A stretch of DNA of 64,000 bases from Paludibacterium sp. B53371 (GTDB taxonomy: Bacteria > Pseudomonadota > Gammaproteobacteria > Burkholderiales > Chromobacteriaceae): NCBI RefSeq assembly GCF_018802765.1, contig NZ_CP069163.1:124001-188000 (forward strand), given 5' to 3'. The position numbers were made by a program, and so were the translations under genes. Below are positions 381 through 62,223 of the stretch, in pieces. The first letter of the stretch is position 1; every line of letters begins with the position of its first letter. The notes under the pieces are model-generated. The model saw only the letters and a program-made list of their open reading frames with translations. It did not search any database and had not been told where the DNA came from.

Positions 381-2030
381 ATGCTGGCAAATAGGGTTCG
401 TACTCGTCGCTGGGTAAGCGGCGTGTGTCTGGCGTGCTGGCATGCACTGTTGTTGGCCGAACCGTCAGAGGCGCCAGGGACGGATGGCCGTTTTTTCCTG
501 CAGGACAACAGCGAACATCTGCGCGGTGAGTTCGATGCGCTTCGCCAGCGCCAGTTACTGCGCGACGAGGACATTCGTTGCGCTCCGGCCGAGCCGGACG
601 CTCATGGCAATGCGTGTTTGCCGGTGCGGGCACTGCGGGTGACCGGGGTCACCCTGCTCGGTGCAGAGGATCTGGCGCTGGTGCGCGAGCAAGGGGCCGG
701 TTGCATGTATGGCATGCGCTTGCAGCGGATTTTGCAGCGGCTGATGGCCTTGTATGTCGAGCGCGGTTATGTGGCTGCCCGGGTGGTGCCGCAGCTGTCT
801 GCCGATGGCGTCATGACGCTGCAGGTGCTGGAAGGGCATGTGGAGGAGATCGAGGGGGATGAGCAGGCCGCGGCCTGGCTGTTTCCCGCCATGAGCGGCA
901 AGCCGTTGAATATCCGTGATCTGGAGCAGGGACTGGATCAGGCCAATCGCCTGCAATCGGCGGCGCTGCGCGCCGAGATTGTGCCCGGGCGACAGGTGGG
1001 CGGTTCGACGGTGCGGTTGCGTGGCCAGGTGGCGCCGGCATGGCATGGCCGGATTGCGCTGGATAACTGGGGTTATGACGCGACCGGGCGCCAGGTGGCG
1101 GGGCTGACCCTGGCGCGCGACAACCTCAGTGGCCGGTATGACTATCTGAGTCTGGCGCTGGAGCACAGTCTGGCCGCGGGACGTTTCAGCCGGCGGCACT
1201 CGCTGTTTTATTCGCTGCCGCACGGCTACTGGAGTTACAGCCTGTTTGCCGGCCAGTCGGCCTATCTGAATCCGCAACGCCTGCGCTACGGCACGGTGGC
1301 GCTGACCGGGGAATCGTCACAGCTTGGTCTGCGGCTGGACCGGGTGCTGTGGCGCGACCAGCAACGGATCTGGAGTACGCATGGCCAGGTGAGTCACAAA
1401 CGGGTGGCCAATTATTTTCTCGGCAGTTTGCAGCAGGTGAGCAGCCCGACGCTGTCGGTGCTGTCGCTGGGGGTGGACAGGCTGAGTCTGCTGGCATTTG
1501 GTTCGCTGACGCTGGAGTTGTCGCTCGACAGTGGCCAGGGCTGGTTCGGGGCTGACGACGGCGTGCCCGGCGGGCCGAGTACCCGCTTTGACAAATGGAG
1601 ACTGAGTACGACCCTGCGCCATCTCACGCCATTGCCGGGATGGCAGTGGGAGAGCCGTTTGCAGGGGCAGTACAGCGGGCGGCGTCTGCCGGCGGTGGAG
1701 CAGCTGGAGCTGGCGGATAACAGCATGGTGCGCGGGTTTCGTCACAACTCGCTGGCCAGCGAACGCGGCTGGGTCTGGCGCAACACCCTGCACGGACAGT
1801 TCCGGCGCGGCGATTGGCAGTGGCTCCCCCGGCTGGGGCTCGATCTGGGCGGTGTCTGGCAGACCCGGGACGATGGTGGCGATCAGCGGATGGCGGGCTG
1901 GGGGCTTGGCATGACACTGCGCTACGGCGACTGGTCACTGGATGGCGAGTACAGCCGGCCGCTCTGGCAGCCGGATTATTTTGTCGGCGAGTCGCAGCAG
2001 GTGCTTTTGCGGCTGAGCCGGCAATTTTAG
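381..2030 (+). CDS. TpsB outer-membrane transporter (ShlB/FhaC/HecB family)
   Basis: This is the Omp85-superfamily pore of a two-partner secretion system, which exports its partner exoprotein (the next gene) across the outer membrane. The 549-residue protein has a basic-hydrophobic signal peptide (about 1-26), a charged linker, two POTRA-like domains (about 75-230, including the VRALRVTGV and VLEGHVEEIEG segments) and a C-terminal beta barrel. The barrel contains the family VRGF motif near residue 449 and ends in the phenylalanine (LSRQF) typical of Bam-assembled barrels. The length suits FhaC/ShlB proteins. The chosen ATG has a GGAG-like sequence just upstream. Known: POTRA domains recognise the TPS domain of the partner. 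Inferred: it serves only the adjacent exoprotein. Confidence 0.93.
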   Translation: MLANRVRTRRWVSGVCLACWHALLLAEPSEAPGTDGRFFLQDNSEHLRGEFDALRQRQLLRDEDIRCAPAEPDAHGNACLPVRALRVTGVTLLGAEDLALVREQGAGCMYGMRLQRILQRLMALYVERGYVAARVVPQLSADGVMTLQVLEGHVEEIEGDEQAAAWLFPAMSGKPLNIRDLEQGLDQANRLQSAALRAEIVPGRQVGGSTVRLRGQVAPAWHGRIALDNWGYDATGRQVAGLTLARDNLSGRYDYLSLALEHSLAAGRFSRRHSLFYSLPHGYWSYSLFAGQSAYLNPQRLRYGTVALTGESSQLGLRLDRVLWRDQQRIWSTHGQVSHKRVANYFLGSLQQVSSPTLSVLSLGVDRLSLLAFGSLTLELSLDSGQGWFGADDGVPGGPSTRFDKWRLSTTLRHLTPLPGWQWESRLQGQYSGRRLPAVEQLELADNSMVRGFRHNSLASERGWVWRNTLHGQFRRGDWQWLPRLGLDLGGVWQTRDDGGDQRMAGWGLGMTLRYGDWSLDGEYSRPLWQPDYFVGESQQVLLRLSRQF

Positions 2031-2125
2031 GGTACCGGGGCGTATGGCACCCGCAGGCCCGATAACGACACGCGCGACACAGCGCGGCAAGACTGCAACT
2101 TCAATCGACAAAGAGGTTAACCATC

Positions 2126-5100
2126 ATGAAAGCATTCAAGCTATCGAGCCACGGGCAGATCGCCTCTGCCCTGGCGCTGTCTTTATTATGCTCCCCGCGC
2201 TTATGGGCCGAAGGGATCGAGCCGGTGGCCGGCTCAGCCACCCAGGTGCAGCAGGTCGGTGCGGTGCCGGTGGTGAATATCGCCCCGGCCAATGCCCAGG
2301 GCCTGTCTCACAATCAGTATCAGGACTACAACGTTGGTCGTGGCGGGGTGGTGCTGAACAATGCCATCGAAGCGGGACGGTCGCAGTTGGCCGGGGCGCT
2401 GCAGGGCAATGCGGCGCTGGCGGGACGGCCTGCGGCGGTGATTCTGAATGAGGTGGTCAGTCGCAATCCCTCCTTGCTGCTCGGGCAGCAGGAGGTGTTC
2501 GGCAAGGCGGCAGACCTGATCCTGGCTAATCCCAACGGGATCACCTGCCAGGGCTGCGGCTTCATCAATACGCGCCGTGCCAGCCTGCTGGTCGGGAGTC
2601 CCGGGCTGCAGGATGGTCGCTTGCAGCAACTGGTGACGGCCAGTCCGGGCAGTACGCTGAGCATCGGCAAGGAAGGCATCCAGGCCGCGCAGGCCCTGGA
2701 TCTGATCGCGCCCCGTATTGATGCCCAGGGTAGTGTGGTGGCGACCAGCGGCATTCACGCGGTGACCGGGCAGGCCGCGATGGACTATGAGCGTCGCGAG
2801 GTGAGCGCCCGTGGCACGGCGCCGGAAGGGCCGGTGCTGGACAGTGCTTTTCTGGGCGGTATGCAGGCCGGGCGCATCAGTATTGTCAGTACCGATGCCG
2901 GTGCCGGGGTCAATCTGGAAGGGGTGCTGAAAGCGCAGGAGCGGGTGCGCATCGACAGCCAGGGCGTCGTGCAGTTGACCGGCGCCGAGTTGAGTGCGCC
3001 CAAGGTGGTGATTCAGGCAGACCGTGTCAGTGCGCGGCCTGGTGTGCATCAGGATAAGCGGGAAAAGCGCGGCCACGACGAGAGCTGGTTCATCTGGCAG
3101 ACCGGCGCCAGCGATACGGTCGAGACCGTGACCGAAACCACACTGAGCCGTCCGGCGCTGAATGGTGAGTTGGTGAAAGTGCAGGCGCGGGGAGCGGTGC
3201 AGCTGGCCGCCACGGATGTGCGCGCCGAGGATATCCGCATCACGGCCGGGGAGGTGGTGCTGGATGGCGTGGCGGACCGTGATGTGACCGAACGGGATTA
3301 CTTTGCCTGGAAAAATTCCTGGCAGCGCAAGGAGCGCACGGAGCACGAGCAACTGAGTTATGAAGGCAGCCTGCTGGATGCCCAGCATGTTCTACAGCTG
3401 AATGCCGCGGGGAGGATGTCGCTGCAGGGGGCCGAGCTGAAGGCCGGCGGGCAGGTGCGTTTGCAGGCCGGCCAGACGCTGGCACTGGCCGGTCTGATTG
3501 AGCGGACGGCCAAGACCGAGCAGGGCAGCCGCTATCTCGAAGGGCCGGAGCTGGCCTCCGGGAGTTGGGATCGGCGTGATCAGCATCAGCAGTTGAAGCC
3601 GACCCAGGTCATGGCCGGTCAGTCTGTGCAGTTGCAGGCAGGCGGGGATATCTCGCTCGAGGGCAGCCGCCTGCTGGCGCAGGGCGATATCAGTTTGCGG
3701 TCCGGCGGTGATGTGGCCCTGGTGGCGCAAGTCATCAACCAGCAGGAGCAGGTACGGGACTATGGCAACCACTGGGGGGGGATTGCCGGCAGCCAACGTC
3801 ACAATGATCAGAAGGAGCAGGCACGGCATCAGCCGACGCAGGTACTGGCGCAGGGCAAGCTGATGGTGAGCGCCGAGAAGGATATCCGCATTGTCGGCAG
3901 TGAGGCCCAGGGGCAGCAGGGGGCGCAGGCGGATACACGTCAAGGCAATCTGCAAATCCAGCATGCCACGGATTTGACCAAGTCGATGGTCGATCAGCGC
4001 ACTGGCGGGGTGTTTGATATCCAGACGCACCGCAGTCTTGGCAGTCACGGGCAGGATACGGTCGCCGCGGCAGCGGTGATGTCAGAGAGCAATCTGCGTC
4101 TGGCCAGCGGCAAGGATGTGGCCGTCAGCGGCAGCCGGGTGGCGGCCACGGGCGCCCTGAATGTGACGGCGGCCGGTGATGTGGTCCTGCAGGCGGCGGA
4201 TCAGCGTACGCGGGACAAGCAGTTCGACAGCCAGCTGATGGTGAATACCGCACTGGGGCAGGATCCGGCACAGGCCGGGCGTTATCGTGCCGGTCTGGAG
4301 ATTGCCCGCCATGATCAGCGGGTGGATGCCGCCAGCCTGTCGCCGCAGGCGGCCGAGTTCAGCGGCGCCAGTGTGCAAGTGGCGGCACAGGGGGATGTGC
4401 GCCTGACCGGCAGTCGCATTGTGGCCACGGATGGTGATGTGTCGGTGCGAGGCAGCAATCTGGCGTTCGACTCTGCCCAGGGGCAGTCACGCAGCTTGCA
4501 GGTGAACAGCGAGGACAGCATGGGTGTGTCGCTGATGGCCAGCAACGAGCAGGTGCAAGTGGCCGGTCAGATGCGCAATCGGCGTGAAACCAGTGACAGC
4601 GAGCAGCAGACGCCATTGGGTAGCCAGGTCAGTGCGACGGGGGATCTGTCGCTGCAGGCGGGCAGCGGGGTATTGCGTACCCGGGGCGGGCAGTTCCAGG
4701 CCGGCGGGGCGCTCAGTGCCGAGGCCGGTCAGATCGTCAATCAGGCGGCACCGCAGTCCTCCTCCTCGCGTCAGGAGACCGTCCAGATGCAGGCAGGGCT
4801 GACACTGGACGGGCAGGCGGGCAATCTGACCAAACCGGTGCATCAGGTACTGGATCAGGTGAAGCGGGGTGATTGGGCGGGGGCGGTGGCTACGGCTCGC
4901 CAGATCGGTAATGGCCCGGAGCAGGGGCTGGACAAGCTGGCGCAGGGTGACTGGGTCGGTCTGGCCAGTTTGCTGGCCCAGGTGACCTTGCCGGGGGCCA
5001 GTCTGGAGGGCAAGGCCGGGACCAGCGAGCTGACCGTGCGCCAATCGGTGCAGGATGCCCTGGCGTCGCGCTATCAGGGGGGAAGCGTGCAGATCACCAG

Positions 5101-6451
5101 TCATGGCAGCCTGACGGATCAGGGGACGCAGTATCTGGCCACGCAGGGCAGCGCGGTGCTGGTGGCGGAGAGTCTGAGTGCTACGGCGCTGGCCACGCAG
5201 CGCGACGAGTCGCGGCAGCAGCGTGACAATCAGGGCAGTTTTCATGCCTCGACCATGACAGGTCATGATCTCAACCTGAAGCTGGGGCTTGGTGCGGGCA
5301 GTCAGTTGCAACGTTCGGAACAGGGAGGGGTGCAGGCCGGCCGGATCGAAGGGGCCAAGGGGGTGTCGTTGCAACTGGCCGGGGATGCCGCCTTGCAGGC
5401 GACCCGGCTGGATGGTGGCTCCGGTGTCCTGCAGGTCAGTGCCGGCGGGGATCTGGCCCTGACGGCTGCCAGTGCGCAATCCCGTCAGGCTCAGCGCAAT
5501 GATCATGGCGGCATCCAGGCCAGTCTGACCCTGAGCGGGGATATGGATAGTCCGCAGTTTGGCGGCGGTGGTCAGATCAATGGTGAGTGGCAGCGGCAGC
5601 AGGGGCAGCAGGGGGGCGTGCAGGGCAGTACGCTGGCGGCCGGCGGTGGGGTGGTGCTGAGCGCCGGGCAGGATCTGCGCTTGCAGGCGGCACAGCTGGG
5701 CTCGGCCGAGACGCCGCTGTCCTCGGTCAGTCTGCGGGCCGGCGGCGATCTGACGCTGGGCAGCATGAGTCGGCATCAGCAAGAAGATCAGCAGGCCGGC
5801 AAGGTCGAGCTGGGGGTCAATGCACGCGTGAGTACCGATGCCGGGGCCGAGTTTGCGCTCAAGGTTGGCCGTGATGGCAGCCGGCAGTCTGACCAGCAGG
5901 GGACGGTGATCCATGCCGACACAGTCCGCCTGGCGGCGGGCGGGCAGCTCGCGGGGCAGTCTGCCCGGGTCGAGGCGGCGCAACTGAGTGGCGAGGTGGG
6001 CGGCAATCTGGCGCTGACCAGTCAGACCCGGCAGGCGGAAGAGCAGCACTTTGCGCTGGATCTTGGGCTGTCGACGCCCGATCTCGGTGAACTGGCCTCG
6101 GGGGGCGGTGACTTGCTGCGCCTGAAGCTGTCGCAGCGTGCGCAACAAAGTTCGGCGGTGCGAGACCCGGCGGTCCTGGCGGCAAGCGCCGGGGCGGACT
6201 GGCAGGTGGGGGGGGCCGCTCAGTTGCAGGGTGCCGTCATGTCGGCTGCCGGCGTGCCGGTGTCGCTGGATGGCCGGGTGCAACGGACATCGCTGGCGGG
6301 GCAGGAGAATAGTCGTCAGCTTGGCTTGTCGCTGGCGGGGACGCCGATCGGCGTGGCGGGCACTGCGCTGACGGATGTGTTGTCGGGCAAGCTGCCCTTT
6401 GGCTGGCAACAGGAGCGCAGTCAGCGCGATCTGACGCAACCTGCACGCTGA
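2126..6451 (+). CDS. TpsA exoprotein, filamentous hemagglutinin/hemolysin-like
   Basis: A 1441-residue secreted beta-helix protein, substrate of the upstream TpsB. It has a signal peptide (about 1-28) and an N-terminal TPS secretion domain (about 30-280). That domain carries the NPNG motif near residue 135, followed by a CxxC-GFINT segment as in ShlA/HpmA hemolysins. Hemagglutinin-type repeats (ALxxxAxGDVxLxA patterns) run to about residue 1400. The C terminus ends in ordinary repeat sequence. I see no VENN pretoxin motif and no obvious C-terminal toxin, and no immunity gene follows, so a contact-dependent inhibition role is not supported. Adhesin or cytolysin is the best guess. The 95-bp gap from tpsB and the terminator after it suggest a two-gene operon. 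Confidence 0.9.
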   Translation: MKAFKLSSHGQIASALALSLLCSPRLWAEGIEPVAGSATQVQQVGAVPVVNIAPANAQGLSHNQYQDYNVGRGGVVLNNAIEAGRSQLAGALQGNAALAGRPAAVILNEVVSRNPSLLLGQQEVFGKAADLILANPNGITCQGCGFINTRRASLLVGSPGLQDGRLQQLVTASPGSTLSIGKEGIQAAQALDLIAPRIDAQGSVVATSGIHAVTGQAAMDYERREVSARGTAPEGPVLDSAFLGGMQAGRISIVSTDAGAGVNLEGVLKAQERVRIDSQGVVQLTGAELSAPKVVIQADRVSARPGVHQDKREKRGHDESWFIWQTGASDTVETVTETTLSRPALNGELVKVQARGAVQLAATDVRAEDIRITAGEVVLDGVADRDVTERDYFAWKNSWQRKERTEHEQLSYEGSLLDAQHVLQLNAAGRMSLQGAELKAGGQVRLQAGQTLALAGLIERTAKTEQGSRYLEGPELASGSWDRRDQHQQLKPTQVMAGQSVQLQAGGDISLEGSRLLAQGDISLRSGGDVALVAQVINQQEQVRDYGNHWGGIAGSQRHNDQKEQARHQPTQVLAQGKLMVSAEKDIRIVGSEAQGQQGAQADTRQGNLQIQHATDLTKSMVDQRTGGVFDIQTHRSLGSHGQDTVAAAAVMSESNLRLASGKDVAVSGSRVAATGALNVTAAGDVVLQAADQRTRDKQFDSQLMVNTALGQDPAQAGRYRAGLEIARHDQRVDAASLSPQAAEFSGASVQVAAQGDVRLTGSRIVATDGDVSVRGSNLAFDSAQGQSRSLQVNSEDSMGVSLMASNEQVQVAGQMRNRRETSDSEQQTPLGSQVSATGDLSLQAGSGVLRTRGGQFQAGGALSAEAGQIVNQAAPQSSSSRQETVQMQAGLTLDGQAGNLTKPVHQVLDQVKRGDWAGAVATARQIGNGPEQGLDKLAQGDWVGLASLLAQVTLPGASLEGKAGTSELTVRQSVQDALASRYQGGSVQITSHGSLTDQGTQYLATQGSAVLVAESLSATALATQRDESRQQRDNQGSFHASTMTGHDLNLKLGLGAGSQLQRSEQGGVQAGRIEGAKGVSLQLAGDAALQATRLDGGSGVLQVSAGGDLALTAASAQSRQAQRNDHGGIQASLTLSGDMDSPQFGGGGQINGEWQRQQGQQGGVQGSTLAAGGGVVLSAGQDLRLQAAQLGSAETPLSSVSLRAGGDLTLGSMSRHQQEDQQAGKVELGVNARVSTDAGAEFALKVGRDGSRQSDQQGTVIHADTVRLAAGGQLAGQSARVEAAQLSGEVGGNLALTSQTRQAEEQHFALDLGLSTPDLGELASGGGDLLRLKLSQRAQQSSAVRDPAVLAASAGADWQVGGAAQLQGAVMSAAGVPVSLDGRVQRTSLAGQENSRQLGLSLAGTPIGVAGTALTDVLSGKLPFGWQQERSQRDLTQPAR

Positions 6452-6501: not shown

Positions 6502-7152
6502 TCAGCGGTAGCCGGCGTTCATCACGAAGGGGTTGCTGCGCTTTTCATCCCCCAGGGTGGTGAAGGGGCCGTGGCCGGTGATGACGGTGGTGTCGTCCGG
6601 CAGGATGAACAGTTTGTTGTGGATGGCGTCGAGCAGGTCGCGGTGGTTGCCGCGCGGAAAGTCGGTACGGCCGATCGAGCCCTGGAACAGGACATCGCCG
6701 GCGACCAGCAGGCCGGCTTCGGCGTTGTAGAACACCACGTGCCCCGGGGTGTGGCCCGGGCAGTGGATGACCTGCAGGGTCTGCTTGCCGACGGTGACGC
6801 TGTCGCCCTGGTTGAGCCAGCGTTGCGGGGTCAGGGCGGCGCTGTGCGGAAAGCCGAAGGACTGTCCCTGTTGTGGCAGTTGATCAAGCCAGAAAGCGTC
6901 ATCGGCCTGCGGGCCTTCGATGTCGACGCCCAGTTGGCGTGCCAGTTCGGCCGCTGCGCCGGCATGGTCGATGTGGCCGTGGGTCAGCAGCAGTTTCTCG
7001 ATGGTCAGGCCCTTGGCGCGGGTAAAGTCCAGAATACGCTCCAGATCCCCGCCGGCATCGACGACAGCAGCGAGCTGCGTTTCGTCGCACCACAGGATCG
7101 AGCAGTTCTGGGCGAACGGCGTGACCGGAATGACGTGATAGTGGAGAGCCAT
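6502..7152 (-). CDS. MBL-fold hydrolase, glyoxalase II-like (YcbL type)
   Basis: A 216-residue cytoplasmic metallo-beta-lactamase-fold hydrolase. Metal ligands are visible: the HxHxDH motif at residues 58-63 (THGHIDHAG), His134 in CPGHTPGH, Asp153 in AGD and His194 in TGHG. The length and lack of a C-terminal substrate-binding extension match the short YcbL-type glyoxalase II family rather than classical GloB, so hydrolysis of a glutathione or other thioester is likely but the substrate is unknown. It is convergent with tpsA and shares its terminator. Confidence 0.88.
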   Translation of the reverse strand: MALHYHVIPVTPFAQNCSILWCDETQLAAVVDAGGDLERILDFTRAKGLTIEKLLLTHGHIDHAGAAAELARQLGVDIEGPQADDAFWLDQLPQQGQSFGFPHSAALTPQRWLNQGDSVTVGKQTLQVIHCPGHTPGHVVFYNAEAGLLVAGDVLFQGSIGRTDFPRGNHRDLLDAIHNKLFILPDDTTVITGHGPFTTLGDEKRSNPFVMNAGYR

Positions 7153-10787: not shown

Positions 10788-11393
10788 TCAACGCAATCCG
10801 GAAATGTATTCCGCAACGGCTTTCATCTCGGCGTCCGACAGGCGGTTTGCAATGTCGTACATCACGGCGTTCTTGCGGTCGGTACCTGCCTTGAAGTCAT
10901 TCAGCTGCTTCAGTACATAGGCCGACTGCTGGCTGCCCAGGCGCGGGAACTGGTCCGGCATGCCGGCACCGGACGGACCATGGCAGGCCATACAGGCCGG
11001 GACGCGGGTGGCCGGATTGCCGGCGCGGTACAACGTCTTGCCTGCGGCCAGCAGGCTCTTGTCGGCCGCATCGTGTTCCTTCGGCTTTTGCTGGCTGAAG
11101 TAGGCGGCGACATTGAGCATATCCTGATCGGACAGCGCGCTGGCCATGCCGAGCATGATCGGGTTCTTGCGCTGGCCGGACTTGAAGGCCTTGAGCTGGC
11201 TGACAATATACGCCGGGTGCTGACCGGCCAGGGTCGGATTGCTGGATGCTACGCTGTTGCCATCGATCCCGTGACAGGCTGCGCAGACCTGCTGTACCAA
11301 CAGCTGACCTTTGGCGGGGTCGCCCTGGGTTTGGGCCGATACGCTGCCAGCCAGTGTGGCGGCGGCCAGTGCCAACAGCACCTTTTGTCTCAT
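10788..11393 (-). CDS. cytochrome c4, diheme
   Basis: A 201-residue periplasmic electron carrier with a signal peptide (cleavage near SVSA-Q, residue 20) and two class I cytochrome domains. The heme motifs are CAACH at residues 37-41 and CMACH at 134-138, each followed by the expected methionine-containing region (e.g. SGAGMPDQFPRLGSQ). The tandem duplication is typical of c4, which passes electrons to cbb3-type oxidases. A good AAGGAG site precedes the ATG. It lies upstream of resB-ccsB on the same strand with about 140 bp between them, so the maturation genes sit next to one of their likely substrates. Confidence 0.93.
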   Translation of the reverse strand: MRQKVLLALAAATLAGSVSAQTQGDPAKGQLLVQQVCAACHGIDGNSVASSNPTLAGQHPAYIVSQLKAFKSGQRKNPIMLGMASALSDQDMLNVAAYFSQQKPKEHDAADKSLLAAGKTLYRAGNPATRVPACMACHGPSGAGMPDQFPRLGSQQSAYVLKQLNDFKAGTDRKNAVMYDIANRLSDAEMKAVAEYISGLR

Positions 11394-55198: not shown

Positions 55199-55380
55199 TG
55201 CAGGCACTACTGCGTTTTGCCCTGTTTGCCGGCACCTTGTTCTGTGGCGTGGGGATGATCCGTCTGGCACGTCGGCCGGATGCCCTGCAGGCACAAAAGA
55301 TCGGCCGTGGCCTGCGCTATCTGACATGGCTTTGCGGCGTGCTGCTGGTGCTCTGGCTGTTGGGGTTGGCCCGGCACTAG
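55198..55380 (+). CDS. small two-helix membrane protein coupled to lpxC
   Basis: A 60-residue protein I do not recognise. Two hydrophobic segments (about 3-21 and 43-57) flank a basic, polar loop (RRPDALQAQKIGRG). Both termini would therefore lie on one side, with the basic loop predicted cytoplasmic. Its ATG shares one base with the lpxC stop (TGATG; a GTG at 55195 is also possible), so translation is probably coupled. A role in envelope or LpxC control is conceivable only from position. Confidence 0.65.
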   Translation: MQALLRFALFAGTLFCGVGMIRLARRPDALQAQKIGRGLRYLTWLCGVLLVLWLLGLARH

Positions 55381-55398
55381 GGGCGGTTTGAAAACTGA

Positions 55399-55427
55399 TT
55401 GTGAAAGCGTTGCCGCAATGATATTGT
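55399..55427 (+). promoter_or_regulatory. candidate promoter of the MFS gene
   Basis: TTGTGA, 17-base spacer, TATTGT: four of six matches at each element with optimal spacing, about 100 bases before the MFS start. Confidence 0.4.
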
Positions 55428-55476
55428 CATTGCTTCTTCCTCTGTCCTGATTGCGCTTGCCCATGTGATGCATTCC

Positions 55477-55518
55477 TGAAAAATCCAGCCATCTTTGCCC
55501 GACAGGGCTGATTTTTCA
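55477..55518 (+). other. leader hairpin before the MFS gene
   Basis: TGAAAAAT (55477-55484) pairs with ATTTTTCA (55511-55518), extended by C-G and AGCC/GGCT past one bulged base. It ends 12 bases before the MFS ATG, next to the GGGAAA ribosome site, so it could influence translation or act as an attenuator. Confidence 0.5.
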
Positions 55519-55530
55519 TGGGAAAACATC

Positions 55531-56733
55531 ATGTTCCGGATTTTTCTGCGCGCATGGCGTCACCACGCCTGGCTGCGCCGCCTATGCTTTGCGCTGATCG
55601 CCAGCTCGATCGGTAATGGTCTGACCTTCATTGTCATTTTTGCTACCCTCAGGCAATGGCATGCCCCGCCATCCGGCATGGCACTGGCCTTTGTGCTGAA
55701 TACGGCCCCCGGACTGCTCGGCAGCCGGCTCGGTGAGTCCCTGCTTGGCCGTATGTCGCCGGCCCGCATCCTGATGCTGGCCGAGGCCGGGGGACTCGCC
55801 GGCTTGTTGCTGCCCTGGCTGGCGCTCGCCCTGCAGCATCCGGGCTGGTTGTTGCTGGCCAGCCTGATGTCGGCATTGACCGGCGGTATGGCGCTGCCTG
55901 CGCTGACCACCCTGCTGAAGCAGGGGCTGGCGGCAGAGGAGACCGCCGCGGGGGCCCTGATCGACACCCTGGTGTTTGCCTGCCACGTCTTGTTTGGTAT
56001 CGGGCTGGGCGTGCTGCTCTATCCGCACTGGCCCGCCCGGAGCTTGCTGGCGCTGGATGCGCTCAGCTATCTGCTGGCCATCGCCTGGCTGAACGCCCTG
56101 CCCGTCATCACCCGCCCAGCACCGACACCATCAGGCCGCCAGCGGCATCCCACGACGCTGACCGCCGGGCAGCGCCGCAGCCTGTGGCTGCTCTCGGTGC
56201 TGACCCTGGTCGGTGCGCCTGCCATGGCCCTGTTGCCGGTACTGGGCTCACAAGGCAACCAGCAGATGTTGCCGCTGCTGTTTGCCCGCAGCCTGGGGCA
56301 ATTGTGTGGTCCCTTGCTGGTGCGGGAGCACTGGCTGTCGAAAGGTGCCAGCAACCGGTTATTGCTGCTTTGTCTGGCCGGGTTTGCCTTTTGCTATGGC
56401 CTGCTGCCCGTGGTCAGTCAGCTCCCATGGGCCTTGCTGCTGGTTTTCCTGGCGCATGTGCTCTCCAACGTGGTGTTCAGCCTGGGCTGGCATGGTTTGC
56501 TGCGACATTTCCCGCCGCAGCTGATCGGCTGGGCGAGCGCCTGCAGCTATCGACGCCAGGTGTGGACTGCGGCGTGCATGGGCATGGCTGCCGGCTGGCT
56601 GGCCGACATGCTTCGTCCTGCCATCAGCCTGTACCTGAGCAGCGCACTGGGACTGCTCATGGCGACGATTCTGCTGCTGCGACTACCCGGGCCCATGATG
56701 CAGGCCAATACAGAGCGTTCCGGCAAGGTGTAA
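55531..56733 (+). CDS. MFS-type transporter
   Basis: A 400-residue integral membrane protein with about 11-12 hydrophobic segments. The first half has SSIGNGLTFIVIF and GLLGSRLGESLLGRM, resembling loop 2-3 of major facilitator efflux proteins. No substrate signature was recognised; drug or metabolite efflux is a guess. ATG 55531 is preceded by GGGAAA and begins the first basic-hydrophobic segment. Confidence 0.75.
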   Translation: MFRIFLRAWRHHAWLRRLCFALIASSIGNGLTFIVIFATLRQWHAPPSGMALAFVLNTAPGLLGSRLGESLLGRMSPARILMLAEAGGLAGLLLPWLALALQHPGWLLLASLMSALTGGMALPALTTLLKQGLAAEETAAGALIDTLVFACHVLFGIGLGVLLYPHWPARSLLALDALSYLLAIAWLNALPVITRPAPTPSGRQRHPTTLTAGQRRSLWLLSVLTLVGAPAMALLPVLGSQGNQQMLPLLFARSLGQLCGPLLVREHWLSKGASNRLLLLCLAGFAFCYGLLPVVSQLPWALLLVFLAHVLSNVVFSLGWHGLLRHFPPQLIGWASACSYRRQVWTAACMGMAAGWLADMLRPAISLYLSSALGLLMATILLLRLPGPMMQANTERSGKV

Positions 56734-56772
56734 GCTGAAACCAACCTTCGCCCATTTTTCAAGGAGCACACA

Positions 56773-57171
56773 ATGAACCACAAGCTTGAGGTCACGACTG
56801 ACAGCAGTGAAGTATGGCAACACCTGGTGACGCCGGAAGGCGAACCGGCCGGCTTTCGCATGCGGTCGACCCTGCCTGCCGATCCGAATGGGGTCGAATT
56901 GCTGCTGGAGCATTGGGACGCCGGCATGACCGAGCCGCCGCACTCGCACCCTGGTGATGACATGACCGTGGTGGTCGCTGGCCGGATGCAGGTGCAGTAC
57001 TACTGTCGGGCCGCCGATGGCAGCCTGCAGAAGGATGGCGACCCCTTTGTACTGGAGCAGGGCGAAACCGGTTATAACCGTGCCGGGCGTATCCACGATG
57101 CCCGCTACCTGAGCGATTGCAAGCTGGCCTTCGTGCATAGCGGGCCGTTTGGTTTCAACGAAGAGAAATAA
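56773..57171 (+). CDS. cupin-domain protein of unknown function
   Basis: A 132-residue single-domain protein. The cupin motif 1 is seen as PPHSHPGDDMTVVVAGRMQV with two histidines for a metal, and the second motif region is near GRIHDARYLSDCKL. AAGGAG lies upstream. Single-domain cupins have many roles; none can be chosen here. Confidence 0.75.
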   Translation: MNHKLEVTTDSSEVWQHLVTPEGEPAGFRMRSTLPADPNGVELLLEHWDAGMTEPPHSHPGDDMTVVVAGRMQVQYYCRAADGSLQKDGDPFVLEQGETGYNRAGRIHDARYLSDCKLAFVHSGPFGFNEEK

Positions 57172-57177
57172 GCCACC

Positions 57178-57207
57178 CGCCTGCCTGCCCGTGGTGGCAG
57201 GCAGGCG
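57178..57207. terminator. 12-bp hairpin between convergent genes
   Basis: CGCCTGCCTGCC and GGCAGGCAGGCG pair perfectly around a six-base loop. It separates the cupin gene from the convergent amidase gene. There is no T run, so termination may be rho-assisted or the hairpin may protect both 3' ends. Confidence 0.55.
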
Positions 57208-57210
57208 AGC

Positions 57211-57978
57211 TCAGGCACCCTGGCTGTAACGCTGGTTCAGCGCGTAGAGAATGGCGCAGCTTTCAATGTCGAGTTCACCACGGATATCGCCGGGCCGGAA
57301 GTGCATCTGGAATGCCCGCAGCAGCGATCGCCACTGACTGTCTGATGCCGGGGCGGCATAACCGTAGCGCTTGAATGCCACCGCCAGCTCTGCCCGCGCG
57401 GGTAAGCCCGTACGCGTGAATTGTGCCGCGAACTGCTGTTTGACCGACTCCTCATACCAGGCGCCAATCCCGGCCTGGTGCAAGCGCTGCCATGGCAATT
57501 TCGGGCCGGGGTCGGATTTGCGCTCATAGGCGACATCCGCATGGCCGACCACATGCTTTGGCGAGATATCCGGATAGCGGGCCAGAATCGAAGTGGCCAA
57601 CTGCTGCAGCGCCAGGATCTGCTCTTCTTCGTAGTCGGGGAAGTCAAATACCCCGCCGCGGGCACTGGCCAGGTTCACGATCTCGATGCCGATCGCCGTG
57701 TCATTCAGATTATCCCTGCCTGCCCAATGGCTGATGCCGGCGTGCCAGGCCCGATCCTCTTCCCTGACCAGCCTGAAAATGCGCAGCGTGTCGAAGCCGG
57801 CCGCCCGGTAGCTCGCGTCTTGTCGTGCCGGAATCAGATAGTGAGCACTGACATTGCCCCGGGTCAGGGCGGTGACTGAACCGGCAAAGGGCAGAGCAGT
57901 ATAGTGGATGATCAGGAAGCGGATGCGCTGGTTGAAGCCCGATCTGGCGGGATAGCTGGTGTCGTCAATGGGGAACAT
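57211..57978 (-). CDS. N-acetylmuramoyl-L-alanine amidase (AmiD/AmpD type)
   Basis: A 255-residue amidase_2 enzyme cleaving the MurNAc-L-Ala bond. Zinc and catalytic residues: His in FLIIHYTA, Glu in IGIEIVN, His in VVGHADVAYERKSDPGPKLPW. A C-terminal peptidoglycan-binding-like helical domain covers about 185-250 and ends in LDIESCAILYALNQRY. The two-domain layout matches E. coli AmiD, but no signal peptide or lipobox is seen, so it may be cytoplasmic and recycle anhydro-muropeptides. Confidence 0.87.
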   Translation of the reverse strand: MFPIDDTSYPARSGFNQRIRFLIIHYTALPFAGSVTALTRGNVSAHYLIPARQDASYRAAGFDTLRIFRLVREEDRAWHAGISHWAGRDNLNDTAIGIEIVNLASARGGVFDFPDYEEEQILALQQLATSILARYPDISPKHVVGHADVAYERKSDPGPKLPWQRLHQAGIGAWYEESVKQQFAAQFTRTGLPARAELAVAFKRYGYAAPASDSQWRSLLRAFQMHFRPGDIRGELDIESCAILYALNQRYSQGA

Positions 57979-58084
57979 CTTGGATTCTCCGGGTAAAGTG
58001 CTGCCTCCCAGGGAGGCTGGGGCGACACTATCGCAGCCTGGGGGGACGGAGAGAAGCCAAGGCGTTCGGGCTAATTATTTTGCA

Positions 58085-58909
58085 TTAAGTAGCTGAATTT
58101 GTTGTGCCAAATACATCATTTCTGTCGGTCTGTGCCTTGCCTGAGCGTCTCGTCTGGATGCTGGCTTCGGCCGCCAGCGCGGCGCCGAGGGCCACGACGG
58201 TTTGTCTTTGCGGCGGAATCAGCACGGGCATGTCCAGTCGCTGCGTCAGGGCCTGACGCAAAGCATGACAGTGCGCCAGGCCGCCGATGAAGACCAGGGG
58301 CGACACCGGCGAGATGCGGCGCACCAGTGCGGCGGCGCGAGAGGCAACCGCATCCACGATACCGCGGGCAATTTCCTCTCGCCGGCAGCCACGGGCGATC
58401 AGGCTGACCACCTCCGACTCGGCAAAAACGGTGCAGGTGCTGTTGATGACATGCCCAGGTCCCTCTTGACCCGCCAGGGCCAATTCCCCGAACTCGTTGA
58501 GGGTGCAGCCGAGCGACATGGCCAGGACTTCGAAAAACCGTCCGGTGCCGGCTGCGCATTTATCGTTCATTTCGAACTGACCGACGTGGCCGTCCGCACC
58601 CAGTGAAATGGCCTTGGTATCCTGTCCACCGATATCCAGTACGGTGCAGCAGTCCGGAAAGCAGTGGCGGGCACCCAGCGCGGCCGCGCGTATCTCGGTA
58701 ATGACTTCGCCGCCCAGCTGGCCGGCGAACAATCGCCGGCCATAGCCGGTCGCGGCGATGGCGTCGAAATGCTGATCCTGCAGCAGCTGGCGGCAGACCG
58801 CCAGCGGCTCGAAGGTGTTTTCCATCACTCGGTGCAGTACCGGCTGGCCATCCTCCAGGATGACCAGCTTGACGGTACGTGAGCCGATATCAATGCCGGC
58901 TGTTCTCAT
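58085..58909 (-). CDS. acyl-CoA dehydratase activase-like ATPase (HgdC/BadF family)
   Basis: A 274-residue ASKHA ATPase that would donate low-potential electrons to its partner, the upstream gene. Nucleotide-binding signatures: GIDIGSRTVKLV at the N terminus and LDIGGQDTKAISL. Cys118 (NDKCAAGTGRF) and Cys159 (STCTVFAESEVVSL) are placed like the two cysteines by which each subunit of the HgdC dimer holds one bridging [4Fe-4S] cluster. It overlaps the reductase gene by ATGA, so the two act together. The C-terminal 20 residues are polar and not conserved in the family as I know it. Confidence 0.9.
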   Translation of the reverse strand: MRTAGIDIGSRTVKLVILEDGQPVLHRVMENTFEPLAVCRQLLQDQHFDAIAATGYGRRLFAGQLGGEVITEIRAAALGARHCFPDCCTVLDIGGQDTKAISLGADGHVGQFEMNDKCAAGTGRFFEVLAMSLGCTLNEFGELALAGQEGPGHVINSTCTVFAESEVVSLIARGCRREEIARGIVDAVASRAAALVRRISPVSPLVFIGGLAHCHALRQALTQRLDMPVLIPPQRQTVVALGAALAAEASIQTRRSGKAQTDRNDVFGTTNSAT

Positions 58910-60183
58910 GCACTCAACCGTTCGATGAAGGCCTCGACACGGGTACGGATCTGGCCGACATCTTCCTGGCTGTAATCCGTGTCAATGCGCAAGGTCGGGA
59001 TGGCCGATTGCTCCAGCGCCTTGATCACCGGACCGGTCTCCATCTGGTATGGCTGACAGAACTGCAAGGTATAGTGGATCACGCCATCGGACTTGCGCTC
59101 GGCGGAAACATCCCGCACAAAGTTCAGCCGCGACGGGTTGGGGGTGAACACGGCACAGTCGATCTGCAGGTAGCGGTCGACCAGATGCTGCATCATCTGT
59201 GGCAGCGTGCTGCCGCTTTCGTCCGTCAGCCAGCGCGTACTGCGCTCGCCGACACAGCCTTCTTCCGCCACGATGACTGCGCCGCTGCTTTCGACGATGG
59301 CCGGAATCTTCCAGTTCGGCACGGCCATCGGGCAGCCCGACAACACCACGCGCGGATGATCGGCCGGGAAAACCCCGACGCCCTGTTGGACCCGCTGCTC
59401 CAGTTCATCACACAGTTGATTGACCGAGTTGGTAAAGCGCACCGGGTCGTCGTAGAACGACACCTGCGAGATCAGCAGGGCATCCAGGCCAGAAATCGGT
59501 ACCGGTCGTGCCGTGCGCAAAGCCGCCAGGCGCTTGAGTGCCCGACGCTTGTTGTTGACGGTGACAATCGCGGCGGCCAGTTTGTCGGCCTGCAAGGTTT
59601 TGCCGGTCACCGCTTCGAGTTTGCGGGCAAATTGCGCATACTCGCTGAGCATCAGCTGCTTGCCCGCTGCGGATTTCACCTGCGGCAGATCGATGACATA
59701 GAGGTCGGGGATATAGTCACCCAGAATCTCATAGGCCTTTTTCTTGCCATCACAGGTATTTTCGCCAACCACCAGATCACAGGCTTCGACGTAGGGACAG
59801 ACCTTGCCCAGTTTGAAGCCGAAGGCCGATTTGATCAGTGCACAGGTATTGCGCGGCAGAATCTGATCCACCAATTCGGTCGCCCATTCGCCACCGGTAC
59901 AGAGGCCAACCGACACACCATCCAGCGCCAGGATCAGCTCTTCCGGCACGTAGGTGCAGTATGAGCCGATGATTTTGCGGCCAGCCGCCTTGGCATCCAT
60001 CAATTCCTTGATGCGCAGGCCATGGACTTCGCTCATGACGAAATCAAAATACTGCATGCCCTGAGGCCGGTTTGGCTGAGAGATGAATACATCCTGATAA
60101 ACCTGCCCCAGGTAGGACAGCAAGGCATCGTGGGCATCCAGATCCAGCCCCAGTGATTGCCACATTTCCCGGTACTCGCTCAT
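58906..60183 (-). CDS. double-cubane-cluster-type reductase (HgdB/FldB superfamily)
   Basis: A 425-residue cytoplasmic Fe-S protein. Conserved cysteine patterns match stand-alone double-cubane cluster proteins more than true 2-hydroxyacyl-CoA dehydratases: Cys76 in SYCTYVPEEL, Cys95 in GLCTGG, Cys114, Cys129/135 in CPYVEAC, Cys144 in ENTCDGKKKAYE, then Cys284 (SGCPMAVPN), Cys310 (EEGCVGERS) and Cys376 (QFCQPYQME). Known: such proteins carry an [8Fe-9S] cluster and, when energised by their ATPase, reduce difficult small substrates; the physiological substrate is unknown. No second dehydratase subunit or CoA-transferase gene lies nearby. AAGGGGAG precedes the ATG. Confidence 0.88.
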   Translation of the reverse strand: MSEYREMWQSLGLDLDAHDALLSYLGQVYQDVFISQPNRPQGMQYFDFVMSEVHGLRIKELMDAKAAGRKIIGSYCTYVPEELILALDGVSVGLCTGGEWATELVDQILPRNTCALIKSAFGFKLGKVCPYVEACDLVVGENTCDGKKKAYEILGDYIPDLYVIDLPQVKSAAGKQLMLSEYAQFARKLEAVTGKTLQADKLAAAIVTVNNKRRALKRLAALRTARPVPISGLDALLISQVSFYDDPVRFTNSVNQLCDELEQRVQQGVGVFPADHPRVVLSGCPMAVPNWKIPAIVESSGAVIVAEEGCVGERSTRWLTDESGSTLPQMMQHLVDRYLQIDCAVFTPNPSRLNFVRDVSAERKSDGVIHYTLQFCQPYQMETGPVIKALEQSAIPTLRIDTDYSQEDVGQIRTRVEAFIERLSA

Positions 60184-60550
60184 TACACTCCCCTTGATGA
60201 TGGATCAGTGAATCAACGCAAGGTCACTTCGAGCGTGCTGACACCGTGTCCTGAGCGGTCAGGGCGGGGCGATCGGGCGGAAATGGCGAGAGGGAGGGGG
60301 CTGAGCGCCCCTGTCATCCGGGTGTTCGGACGGGCAAGGTTCAAAAGCGGGTCCGACACCGTGCTGCGATATCCGCTGCTTATGCCAGAAGAGTCCCTTG
60401 ATCTAAAGATATATGTAGAGAGGATGCTACCCGGGTGCAGGGGAGTCAAACGTTTGTTTCATATGAAACGAAAACCATACCAATGGTGTGGTTAATTTGC
60501 CGAATGAGCGCAGCGGTCGCCCTGTGGCCGACCGCCGGCTGGGATGGCGA
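60184..60550. other. 367-bp gene-free leader of the reductase operon
   Basis: No plausible gene was seen. The part near the reductase is GC-rich and contains only its ribosome binding site. The part at 60395-60485 is AT-rich and contains two palindromes and a possible minus-strand promoter. A GCGGTCG/CGACCGC hairpin near 60511-60533 may end the upstream CNP1-like transcript. Confidence 0.55.
60447..60472. promoter_or_regulatory. tandem palindromes upstream of the reductase operon
   Basis: CAAACGTTTG (60447-60456) is a perfect 10-bp palindrome sharing its last base with GTTTCATATGAAAC (60456-60469), a perfect 14-bp palindrome with imperfect extension to 60472. On the minus strand they lie next to and overlap a TTGACT (60449-60444) that could be a -35 element; TAGCAT (60429-60424) follows at a short 14-base spacing, which suggests that an activator is needed. 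The regulator is not in the window. Confidence 0.5.
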
Positions 60551-61081
60551 TTAAAGCCAGGGGGCCTTTTTCAGCAGCGTCAGCGCCGTGGCGGCATCCG
60601 CCGGCGTTTGCCAGTCGACGCACAGATCTTCGGCCAGACGCAGACGCGTCATGTCATCTTCATTGACCCGGCGCCACACGGAGCGCCTGGATTCATACCA
60701 TTTCATGCCCACCGTATCACCGAAGGCATAGGGGCGGGTCTCGCGACTCCGGCAATGGATCCCTTCGTAGCTGACATTTTCCGCACCGGTCGCACTGACC
60801 ACGCGCAAGGTGAAGCGTACGACTTCATCACTGCCAACGCTGAGCGATTTGGCATCCACGTAAAAATGGTAGTCCTTCTTGAGGGGGACAAAAAAACCGA
60901 CCCAATCGGGTTTGTCCGGATAGGGCGGGACGGTGTACTCCCCCTCTTTCCAGGGGCCGGTGTCTTCAAAAGCATAGACACCATTGTTGATCGGCTTGTA
61001 GTCCCGGGTTGCCGGGTTGGCCAGTGCGCCATGGGCCAGCAGGCAGCAGGCCAGGGACGCGACAAGAAGCTTGATACGCAT
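60551..61081 (-). CDS. CNP1-like family exported protein
   Basis: A 176-residue protein with a signal peptide (about 1-22, ending ALA-NP). The mature part resembles the CNP1-like family: FVPLKKDYHFYVDAKSLSVG, VRFTLRVVSATGAENVSYEGIHC and RPYAFGDTVGMKW. The function of the family is unknown; it is common in betaproteobacteria. The frame is open far upstream, but the signal peptide fixes ATG 61081. Ten bases after the NRDE gene, so probably one operon. Confidence 0.82.
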   Translation of the reverse strand: MRIKLLVASLACCLLAHGALANPATRDYKPINNGVYAFEDTGPWKEGEYTVPPYPDKPDWVGFFVPLKKDYHFYVDAKSLSVGSDEVVRFTLRVVSATGAENVSYEGIHCRSRETRPYAFGDTVGMKWYESRRSVWRRVNEDDMTRLRLAEDLCVDWQTPADAATALTLLKKAPWL

Positions 61082-61868: not shown

Positions 61869-61992
61869 GAATAATCACCACAACTAAAGTTGGGAGTCAT
61901 ACGCACTCAGCGTACACTATTAGATCCTGCGCAAGATTATCGGCAGGCGCTAATGTTTACATTGTATCGTGAATGAACCTGGATTACCCAAG
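61869..61992. promoter_or_regulatory. divergent promoter region of the NRDE and tusA-like genes
   Basis: 124 AT-rich bases between divergent genes. It must hold promoters for both directions, but no -35/-10 pair is clear enough to mark. Confidence 0.4.
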
Positions 61993-62223
61993 ATGCAAAT
62001 TGATCGCTCTCTGGATTTGTCGGGCCTGAACTGCCCCTTGCCCATCCTGCGCGCCAAGAAGGCGCTGGCCGATATGGCCAGTGGCAGTACCCTGGAGGTG
62101 CTGGCCACCGATCCGGGCGCACCGGCGGATTTCGCCGCTTTCTGCCGCCAGACCGGCAACACCTTGCAGGTTTCCGAGACCACGGCCGAAGGCAAGTTCA
62201 GGCTGATCCTGCAACGCAAATGA
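61993..62223 (+). CDS. TusA/SirA-family sulfur carrier protein
   Basis: A 76-residue protein with the family core [19 protein letters not shown]; the cysteine in NCPLP is the persulfide carrier. TusA delivers sulfur for tRNA thiolation or other routes. Paralogues (YedF, YeeD) share the motif, so the partner is uncertain. ATG 61993 gives the usual length; a GTG at 61969 would add eight residues. The stop overlaps an ATG of the next frame (ATGA at 62220). Confidence 0.87.

Follow-up and report, generated by a model that had tools for sequence, protein, structure and literature searches.

A stand-alone double-cubane-cluster protein and activase gene pair in Paludibacterium sp. B53371, with a possible link to selenium metabolism

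The gene pair and its surroundings

The analyzed DNA (the window) is a 64,000-nucleotide stretch of the Paludibacterium sp. B53371 genome, in which two overlapping genes encode a double-cubane-cluster (DCC) protein and its activase. The features of the locus are the following:

58085..58909, minus strand: activase gene, 274 aa, HgdC-type, DCCP reductase and YjiL-like ATPase (TIGR00241, PDB 7yyl chain E, 1hux)
58906..58909, minus strand: ATGA overlap of the DCC stop with the activase start (direct reading)
58906..60183, minus strand: DCC-protein gene, 425 aa, DCCP/YjiM family, predicted [8Fe-9S] reductase (NF040772, PDB matches, cysteines, tree)
60184..60550, minus strand: upstream intergenic stretch with AAGGGGAG ahead of the ATG, presumed promoter region (direct reading)
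60456..60469, no strand: perfect palindrome GTTTCATATGAAAC, putative operator, picked after the fact
55199..60550, no strand: insertion between lpxC and the CNP1-like gene, holding MFS, cupin, amidase, activase, and DCC genes (congener comparison)

The ATGA coupling of the two genes claimed in the original prediction is seen directly in the junction GCATGAGA, where the stop codon TGA of the DCC gene sits within ATGA. The end of the predicted operon at 60550 includes 367 bp of intergenic DNA upstream of the DCC gene. No match to the sigma-70 promoter consensus or to the terminator consensus was found upstream of or around the pair. The palindrome is a possible operator; it has a single match in the window at up to two mismatches, and one was present in 6 of 100 shuffled sequences. 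An FNR-type site at 60454-60467, upstream of the pair, was rejected as uninformative by itself, being two mismatches off; the window has 31 FNR-type matches at up to two mismatches versus 14.9 expected from shuffling. No Rfam match was obtained in 57900-60700 and no tRNA in the window.

The scanned neighboring genes encode an AmpD-like amidase, a cupin (below the cut-off), an MFS protein, a CNP1-like protein, TANGO2, and TusA; no CoA-transferase or amino acid pathway gene was found among them, as had been predicted. The TusA sulfurtransferase gene (61969-62223, plus strand; Pfam, 75.5 bits) is located ~1.8 kb from the pair. In five congener stretches it lies beside pyrC or TANGO2, so that it was there before the insertion and probably has nothing to do with the pair. 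At the other end of the window (381-6451, plus strand), a two-partner secretion pair comprises a transporter of the ShlB/FhaC type and a TPS-domain protein of 1441 aa that resembles filamentous haemagglutinin.

Family assignment of the two proteins

Over its full length, the 425-aa protein belongs by sequence to the known family of double-cubane-cluster proteins. It matched the Pfam HGD-D profile (PF06050) with 378.6 bits (cut-off 28.4) and the equivalog NF040772, 'double-cubane-cluster-containing anaerobic reductase', with 448.6 bits (cut-off 350) over positions 4-372 of the 372-position profile. The PDB entries 6eno, 7yyl, 7yzm, and 7yzq are those that we take to be the DCCP and DCCP reductase of Carboxydothermus hydrogenoformans; of these, 7yyl and 6eno match residues 3-423 of the protein with an E-value of about 1e-136. 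The activase scored 216.2 bits against TIGR00241 (cut-off 125.4), and its best PDB match is chain E of 7yyl (E-value 1.5e-46), a 'putative CoA-substrate-specific enzyme activase' that shares its entry with the DCCP chain; HgdC (1hux) was matched with an E-value of 1.8e-43. Judged by these profile and structure-database scores, the family matches of both ORFs are far beyond chance.

The candidate cluster cysteines are conserved in both proteins. In the activase, C118 and C159 lie within the motifs NDKCAAGTG and STCTVFAES, both common to HgdC (1hux) in the alignment, which together with the TIGR00241 match agrees with the claimed HgdC-type ATPase with two cluster cysteines; a [4Fe-4S] cluster common to the subunits of a homodimer is predicted. 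An alignment of 102 rows was used to compare the cysteines of the DCC protein; besides the window protein, DCCP, and YjiM, it covers seven loci that came from genome searches and 92 ORFs (extra ORFs included) of 80 related loci. C76, C95, C114, C144, C310, C343, and C376 are cysteines in 102/102 rows and C129 in 99/102, with the loci L157, L158, and L160 as exceptions, and all eight conserved residues, six of which would be cluster ligands, are present in 6eno. The prediction of an HgdB-superfamily protein with the double-cubane cysteine pattern is thus corroborated by both the NF040772 score and the eight conserved cysteines.

An alternative reading is that the protein is a subunit of a 2-hydroxyacyl-CoA dehydratase or a class I benzoyl-CoA reductase with its partner encoded elsewhere. 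Such enzymes have the HGD-D fold in common with the DCC protein, and the HadC and BzdN models match it weakly; however, the scores for HadC (112.8 bits, cut-off 700), BzdN (78.6, cut-off 453.8), and BcrC (60.8, cut-off 421.15) are all below their cut-offs. Moreover, the genome, searched as one contig of 3.63 Mb and 99.72% complete, has one match to PF06050 and one to PF01869 (BcrAD/BadFG), both in this pair. This single PF06050 gene is in line with the predicted lack of a second dehydratase subunit, and a distant second-subunit gene, which the original prediction had named as evidence against itself, was looked for in the genome without a second HGD-D gene being found. The DCC protein also has C76 and C310, which HadC and MbdN lack in the alignments.

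The placement in a tree, proposed along with the prediction, likewise puts the DCC protein away from the 2-hydroxyacyl-CoA dehydratase subunits and together with DCCP and YjiM. In the maximum-likelihood tree, built from a selection of 47 of the collected rows and midpoint-rooted for drawing only, the window protein groups with the protein of locus L032 (support 100/99) inside a clade of DCCP, YjiM, and other DCC proteins. This clade is split with 100/100 support from HadC, BzdN, and MbdN, as well as from sequences in the order and phylum samples that resemble dehydratases or reductases, with deep placements being unsure because long branches were flagged, among them those of YjiM, HadC, and BzdN. 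Based on the single PF06050 gene, the sub-cut-off subunit models, and the tree, we rejected the subunit reading, which we regard as extremely improbable. The assignment as a stand-alone double-cubane reductase with its activase is supported by the profiles, the PDB matches, the cysteines, and the lone pair in the genome. On the dehydratase/benzoyl-CoA reductase side of the tree, the loci L164 and L165 (genomes G301 and G386) form a long branch; their HGD-D proteins (204 and 200 bits) are under the NF040772 cut-off, adjoin a weaker second match, and have an activase nearby.

Distribution and acquisition of the pair

This genome alone gave an NF040772 match, both among 61 genomes of the family and among six of the genus, which suggests an acquisition private to it rather than a lineage-wide trait. 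The comparison of relatives proposed in the original prediction thus had an unexpected outcome. In the order sample, 20 of 399 genomes matched the profile at E ≤ 0.001, three of them above the cut-off (this genome, G238, and G223), while nine of the 398 genomes of the phylum sample matched, again with three above the cut-off (this genome, G674, and G537). The proteins of G238, G223, and G537 are 31-34% identical to the window protein and belong to another DCC branch. Among the best 80 of 374 GTDB loci, the nearest relative is L032, from an Acidobacteriota metagenome-assembled genome (MAG; 74% identity), followed by Spirochaetota and Deltaproteobacteria with 63-67% identity for most top entries, where the GTDB locus listing may omit records from the window's own or near genomes. 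The L032 genes form a stand-alone pair too, with an identical ATGA overlap. Of the 70 related loci that extend 900 nt or more past the DCC gene, 64 have an activase downstream on the same strand, at a distance of up to 350 nt in 61.

The site of the pair is occupied differently in the congeners. In G041 and G039 (L123 and L124), 0.74 and 0.76 kb, respectively, separate the matched ends of lpxC and TANGO2, and the five intervening genes (MFS, cupin, amidase, activase, and DCC) are missing, and G043 (L122) has about 2.6 kb at that site; none of the five genes has a match in L120-L124 at an E-value of 1e-8, with the site itself being unreadable in G040 and G042 (L120 and L121) because their contigs end shortly after CNP1. 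The GC3 values of the pair (0.72 and 0.74) give no transfer signal compared with the ten neighboring genes (0.71-0.83). From these data we infer that the pair was acquired horizontally, though not very recently. Carriage by plasmids was considered and rejected: megablast gave no match among plasmids, and the 27 plasmid records matched in the protein search, 14 of them from Escherichia or Klebsiella, all have <60% identity.

The same observations bear on the possibility that the pair is a cassette of recent arrival, now idle or in decay in the host. Its restriction to this genome in the family sample, the congeners that do without it, and the lack of a sigma-70 promoter consensus upstream would fit such a cassette. 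However, both frames are intact, the conserved cysteines and the ATGA overlap are retained, and the GC3 of both genes falls inside the range of the neighbors, and we thus consider an idle cassette improbable.

Selenium genes near related loci and the function of the pair

The gene neighborhoods were compared by grouping 843 ORFs from these 80 loci (the best 80 of 374) into clusters, which yielded recurring neighbors with antisense artefacts among them. Five neighbor clusters were named by NCBIfam, with all representatives above the cut-off, as seleno_YedE, YedF, SelB, SelD, and a selenium-associated LysR. At fixed score thresholds and in flanks of up to 8 kb, at least one of these five genes was found in 32 of the best 80 of 374 related loci (YedE in 13, YedF in 14, SelB in 11, SelD in 10, and LysR in 7), and in 10 of the 29 loci flanked by 6 kb or more on each side. 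In contrast, they were found in none of the 60 control stretches (778 kb, compared with 990 kb for the loci), which were placed without regard to content in 33 genomes carrying these loci and many of which are contig ends. Among stretches of at least 12 kb, selenium genes occurred in 19 of 46 loci versus 0 of 40 controls (Fisher p 8e-7), or in 18 of 46 versus 0 of 40 when LysR was left out (p 2e-6), with both p-values being optimistic because the loci are related by descent. The Bacteroidales genome G887 has selA, selB, a cysteine-desulfurase-family gene, yedF, selD, DCC, and activase genes in this order on one strand, and G674, from the host's phylum and class, has a desulfurase-family gene, a YjiM-type DCC gene, its activase, and yedF together. 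None of the five selenium genes had a match at an E-value of 1e-3 in the window and the 19-kb stretch L125, or in L032 and two of the three Bacteroidales loci (L162 and L163).

Several related loci are organized in other ways. L063 has two DCC-type genes (ORFs near 6590 and 8001), of which one is closely related to the window protein and the other groups with those of YjiM and G674; YedF and a LysR of the selenium type are encoded close by. A separate NF040772 branch (L157:8038-9315, L158:7548-8939, and L160:8501-9784) is above the cut-off with 31-34% identity to the window protein and lacks C129; its DCC genes have activase and DsbD-type membrane protein genes beside them, L158 and L160 are flanked by TonB-dependent receptors (Pfam), and a ferredoxin-type membrane protein is encoded in L160 as well. 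This branch may represent a different double-cubane system handling an imported substrate, and with such TonB and DsbD-like neighbors a single function need not hold for the wider family. The Bacteroidales loci L166:3168-4397 and L167:7396-8625 (G1020 and G911) encode DCC-like proteins that are very divergent (23-25% identity), with no activase match at an E-value of 1e-6 in the fetched stretch and no SelD above the cut-off in the genomes.

The host itself encodes SelD (G000:C1:1194857-1195786, 430 bits) and, adjoining it, the selenouridine synthase MnmH/SelU (1193874-1194785, 366 bits), both above their cut-offs and about 1 Mb from the pair. No SelA match was obtained in any of the six genus genomes, including the host, which therefore probably uses selenium only in tRNA. 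Four of the five congeners have SelD and SelU but no DCC pair, and the pair is thus optional for that trait. SelD was above the cut-off in 51 of the 54 DCC-bearing genomes searched, including the host and the genome of L032 (G812), the exceptions being G537, G830, and G836, where many of the 54 are incomplete MAGs. In Bacteroidales, 3 of 3 DCC-bearing genomes have SelD versus 112 of 247 overall (chance about 0.09). This co-occurrence is weakly consistent with a selenium role; as proof of one we rejected it as too weak, since four of five DCC-lacking congeners also have SelD. The anaerobic ribonucleotide reductase NrdD is present in all six genus genomes, including the host, which makes anaerobic growth plausible and weakens the contrast originally drawn between the pair and an aerobic life. 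The aerobic respiratory genes cited there were checked in part, and one cytochrome c domain protein was found in the window (10788-11393).

The function proposed below combines these data with published work on the DCCP family, from which the cluster, the ATP coupling, and the small-molecule reduction were carried over to this pair. The activase dimer would bind ATP and hold one [4Fe-4S] cluster, and ATP hydrolysis would inject single electrons at very low potential into the DCC homodimer, whose [8Fe-9S] double-cubane clusters would collect them. By analogy with the DCCP family, such ATP-gated electron injection presumably holds here. The homodimer would then act on a small substrate, reducing it without the help of a second subunit or the need for a CoA ester. 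We have high confidence in the DCCP:DCCP-reductase class, this type of mechanism, and the acquisition taken jointly. The 'uncharacterized anaerobic reduction' of the original prediction is possible, and not without clues, as the related loci point to selenium metabolism. The natural substrate could be a selenium compound, the reduction or reductive cleavage of which would deliver selenide to SelD and, in this host, serve tRNA selenouridine; the chemistry might be a reduction of selenite-derived or zero-valent selenium or a cleavage of carbon-selenium bonds. A selenium-linked role of this copy, suggested by the neighbors of relatives at 61-66% identity, is a tentative proposal that we hold with rather low confidence. 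The more general model would make DCCP/YjiM pairs a dedicated ATP-driven reductive step of bacterial selenium supply, from an oxidized or carbon-bound source to selenide, with the host having its smallest, stand-alone form that feeds SelD for tRNA selenouridine only; we consider this generalization somewhat unlikely.

The pair could instead encode a low-potential reductase of broad range with no tie to selenium, serving the detoxification or scavenging of small molecules (azide, hydrazine, or acetylene-like compounds), and stand-alone pairs would then spread as self-contained cassettes. According to the portion of PMC11971306 available, DCCP can reduce acetylene, hydrazine, and azide, the relevance of which is unclear; the window pair and L032 both stand alone, and the four congeners with SelD and SelU manage without the pair. 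The selenium neighborhoods, found in several phyla and in 32 of the best 80 of 374 related loci against 0 of 60 controls, argue against this reading, to which we assign somewhat less than an even chance.

The biological function of archetypal DCCPs is stated as unknown in the accessible text of PMC11971306, and the Calderihabitans DCCP genes, according to the available sections of PMC7306483, are down-regulated under CO and form one transcription unit with a LysR-like gene. A link between DCC proteins and selenium was not first made here, as it is provisionally in print (PMC10418091; Table 1 of PMC5322559, both available in part). In that table, a '2-hydroxyglutaryl-CoA dehydratase subunit' and a 'CoA-substrate-specific enzyme activase' are STRING partners of YedE, YedF, LysR, and DUF3343 in Slackia, and these two are not proposed as candidates in the available portion of the article (Lin et al., 2015; PMC5322559). 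We recognized no experimental test of the link in the literature searched, which was available in part and did not extend to the primary DCCP papers. The present analysis adds the context of the pair, with its private acquisition in this lineage and the controlled selenium-neighborhood signal in relatives, and the control makes the provisional link directly testable. The host offers a simple test bed for the selenium-linked reading, with one DCC pair, SelD beside SelU, no selenocysteine synthase, and congeners that have SelD and SelU but no pair.

Among known systems, the window protein is matched over its full length by DCCP with its reductase (6eno, 7yyl, 7yzm, and 7yzq; 46.9% identity), which has the same conserved cysteines and the same type of activase partner. 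Unlike the DCCP of C. hydrogenoformans, named as the DCCP organism in the available text of PMC7306483, the window pair belongs to a proteobacterium and lies within an insertion. The E. coli genes yjiM and yjiL (b4335 and b4334) have the same gene order, family, and conserved cysteines, but YjiM is shorter (383 aa, 35.7% identity) and on a different branch, and its gene does not overlap yjiL. BzdN (PDB 8s02), which is reported to carry a double-cubane [8Fe-9S] cluster in the accessible part of PMC11971306, keeps the equivalents of C76, C114, C144, C310, and C376 by our reading of the alignment; in contrast to the DCC protein, which it matches with 71.6 bits only, it is half of the BzdNO heterodimer acting on a CoA ester and falls on a separate branch. 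The 2-hydroxyisocaproyl-CoA dehydratase subunit HadC (PDB 3o3m) shares the HGD-D fold but requires a second subunit and lacks the C76 and C310 of the DCC protein, while HgdC (1hux) is the same type of ATPase activator as the window activase. The DCC pairs in selenium operons (for instance L054, and L161 in G887) are the same gene pair at 61-66% identity; they adjoin selB, selD, yedE, or yedF, whereas the window copy does not.
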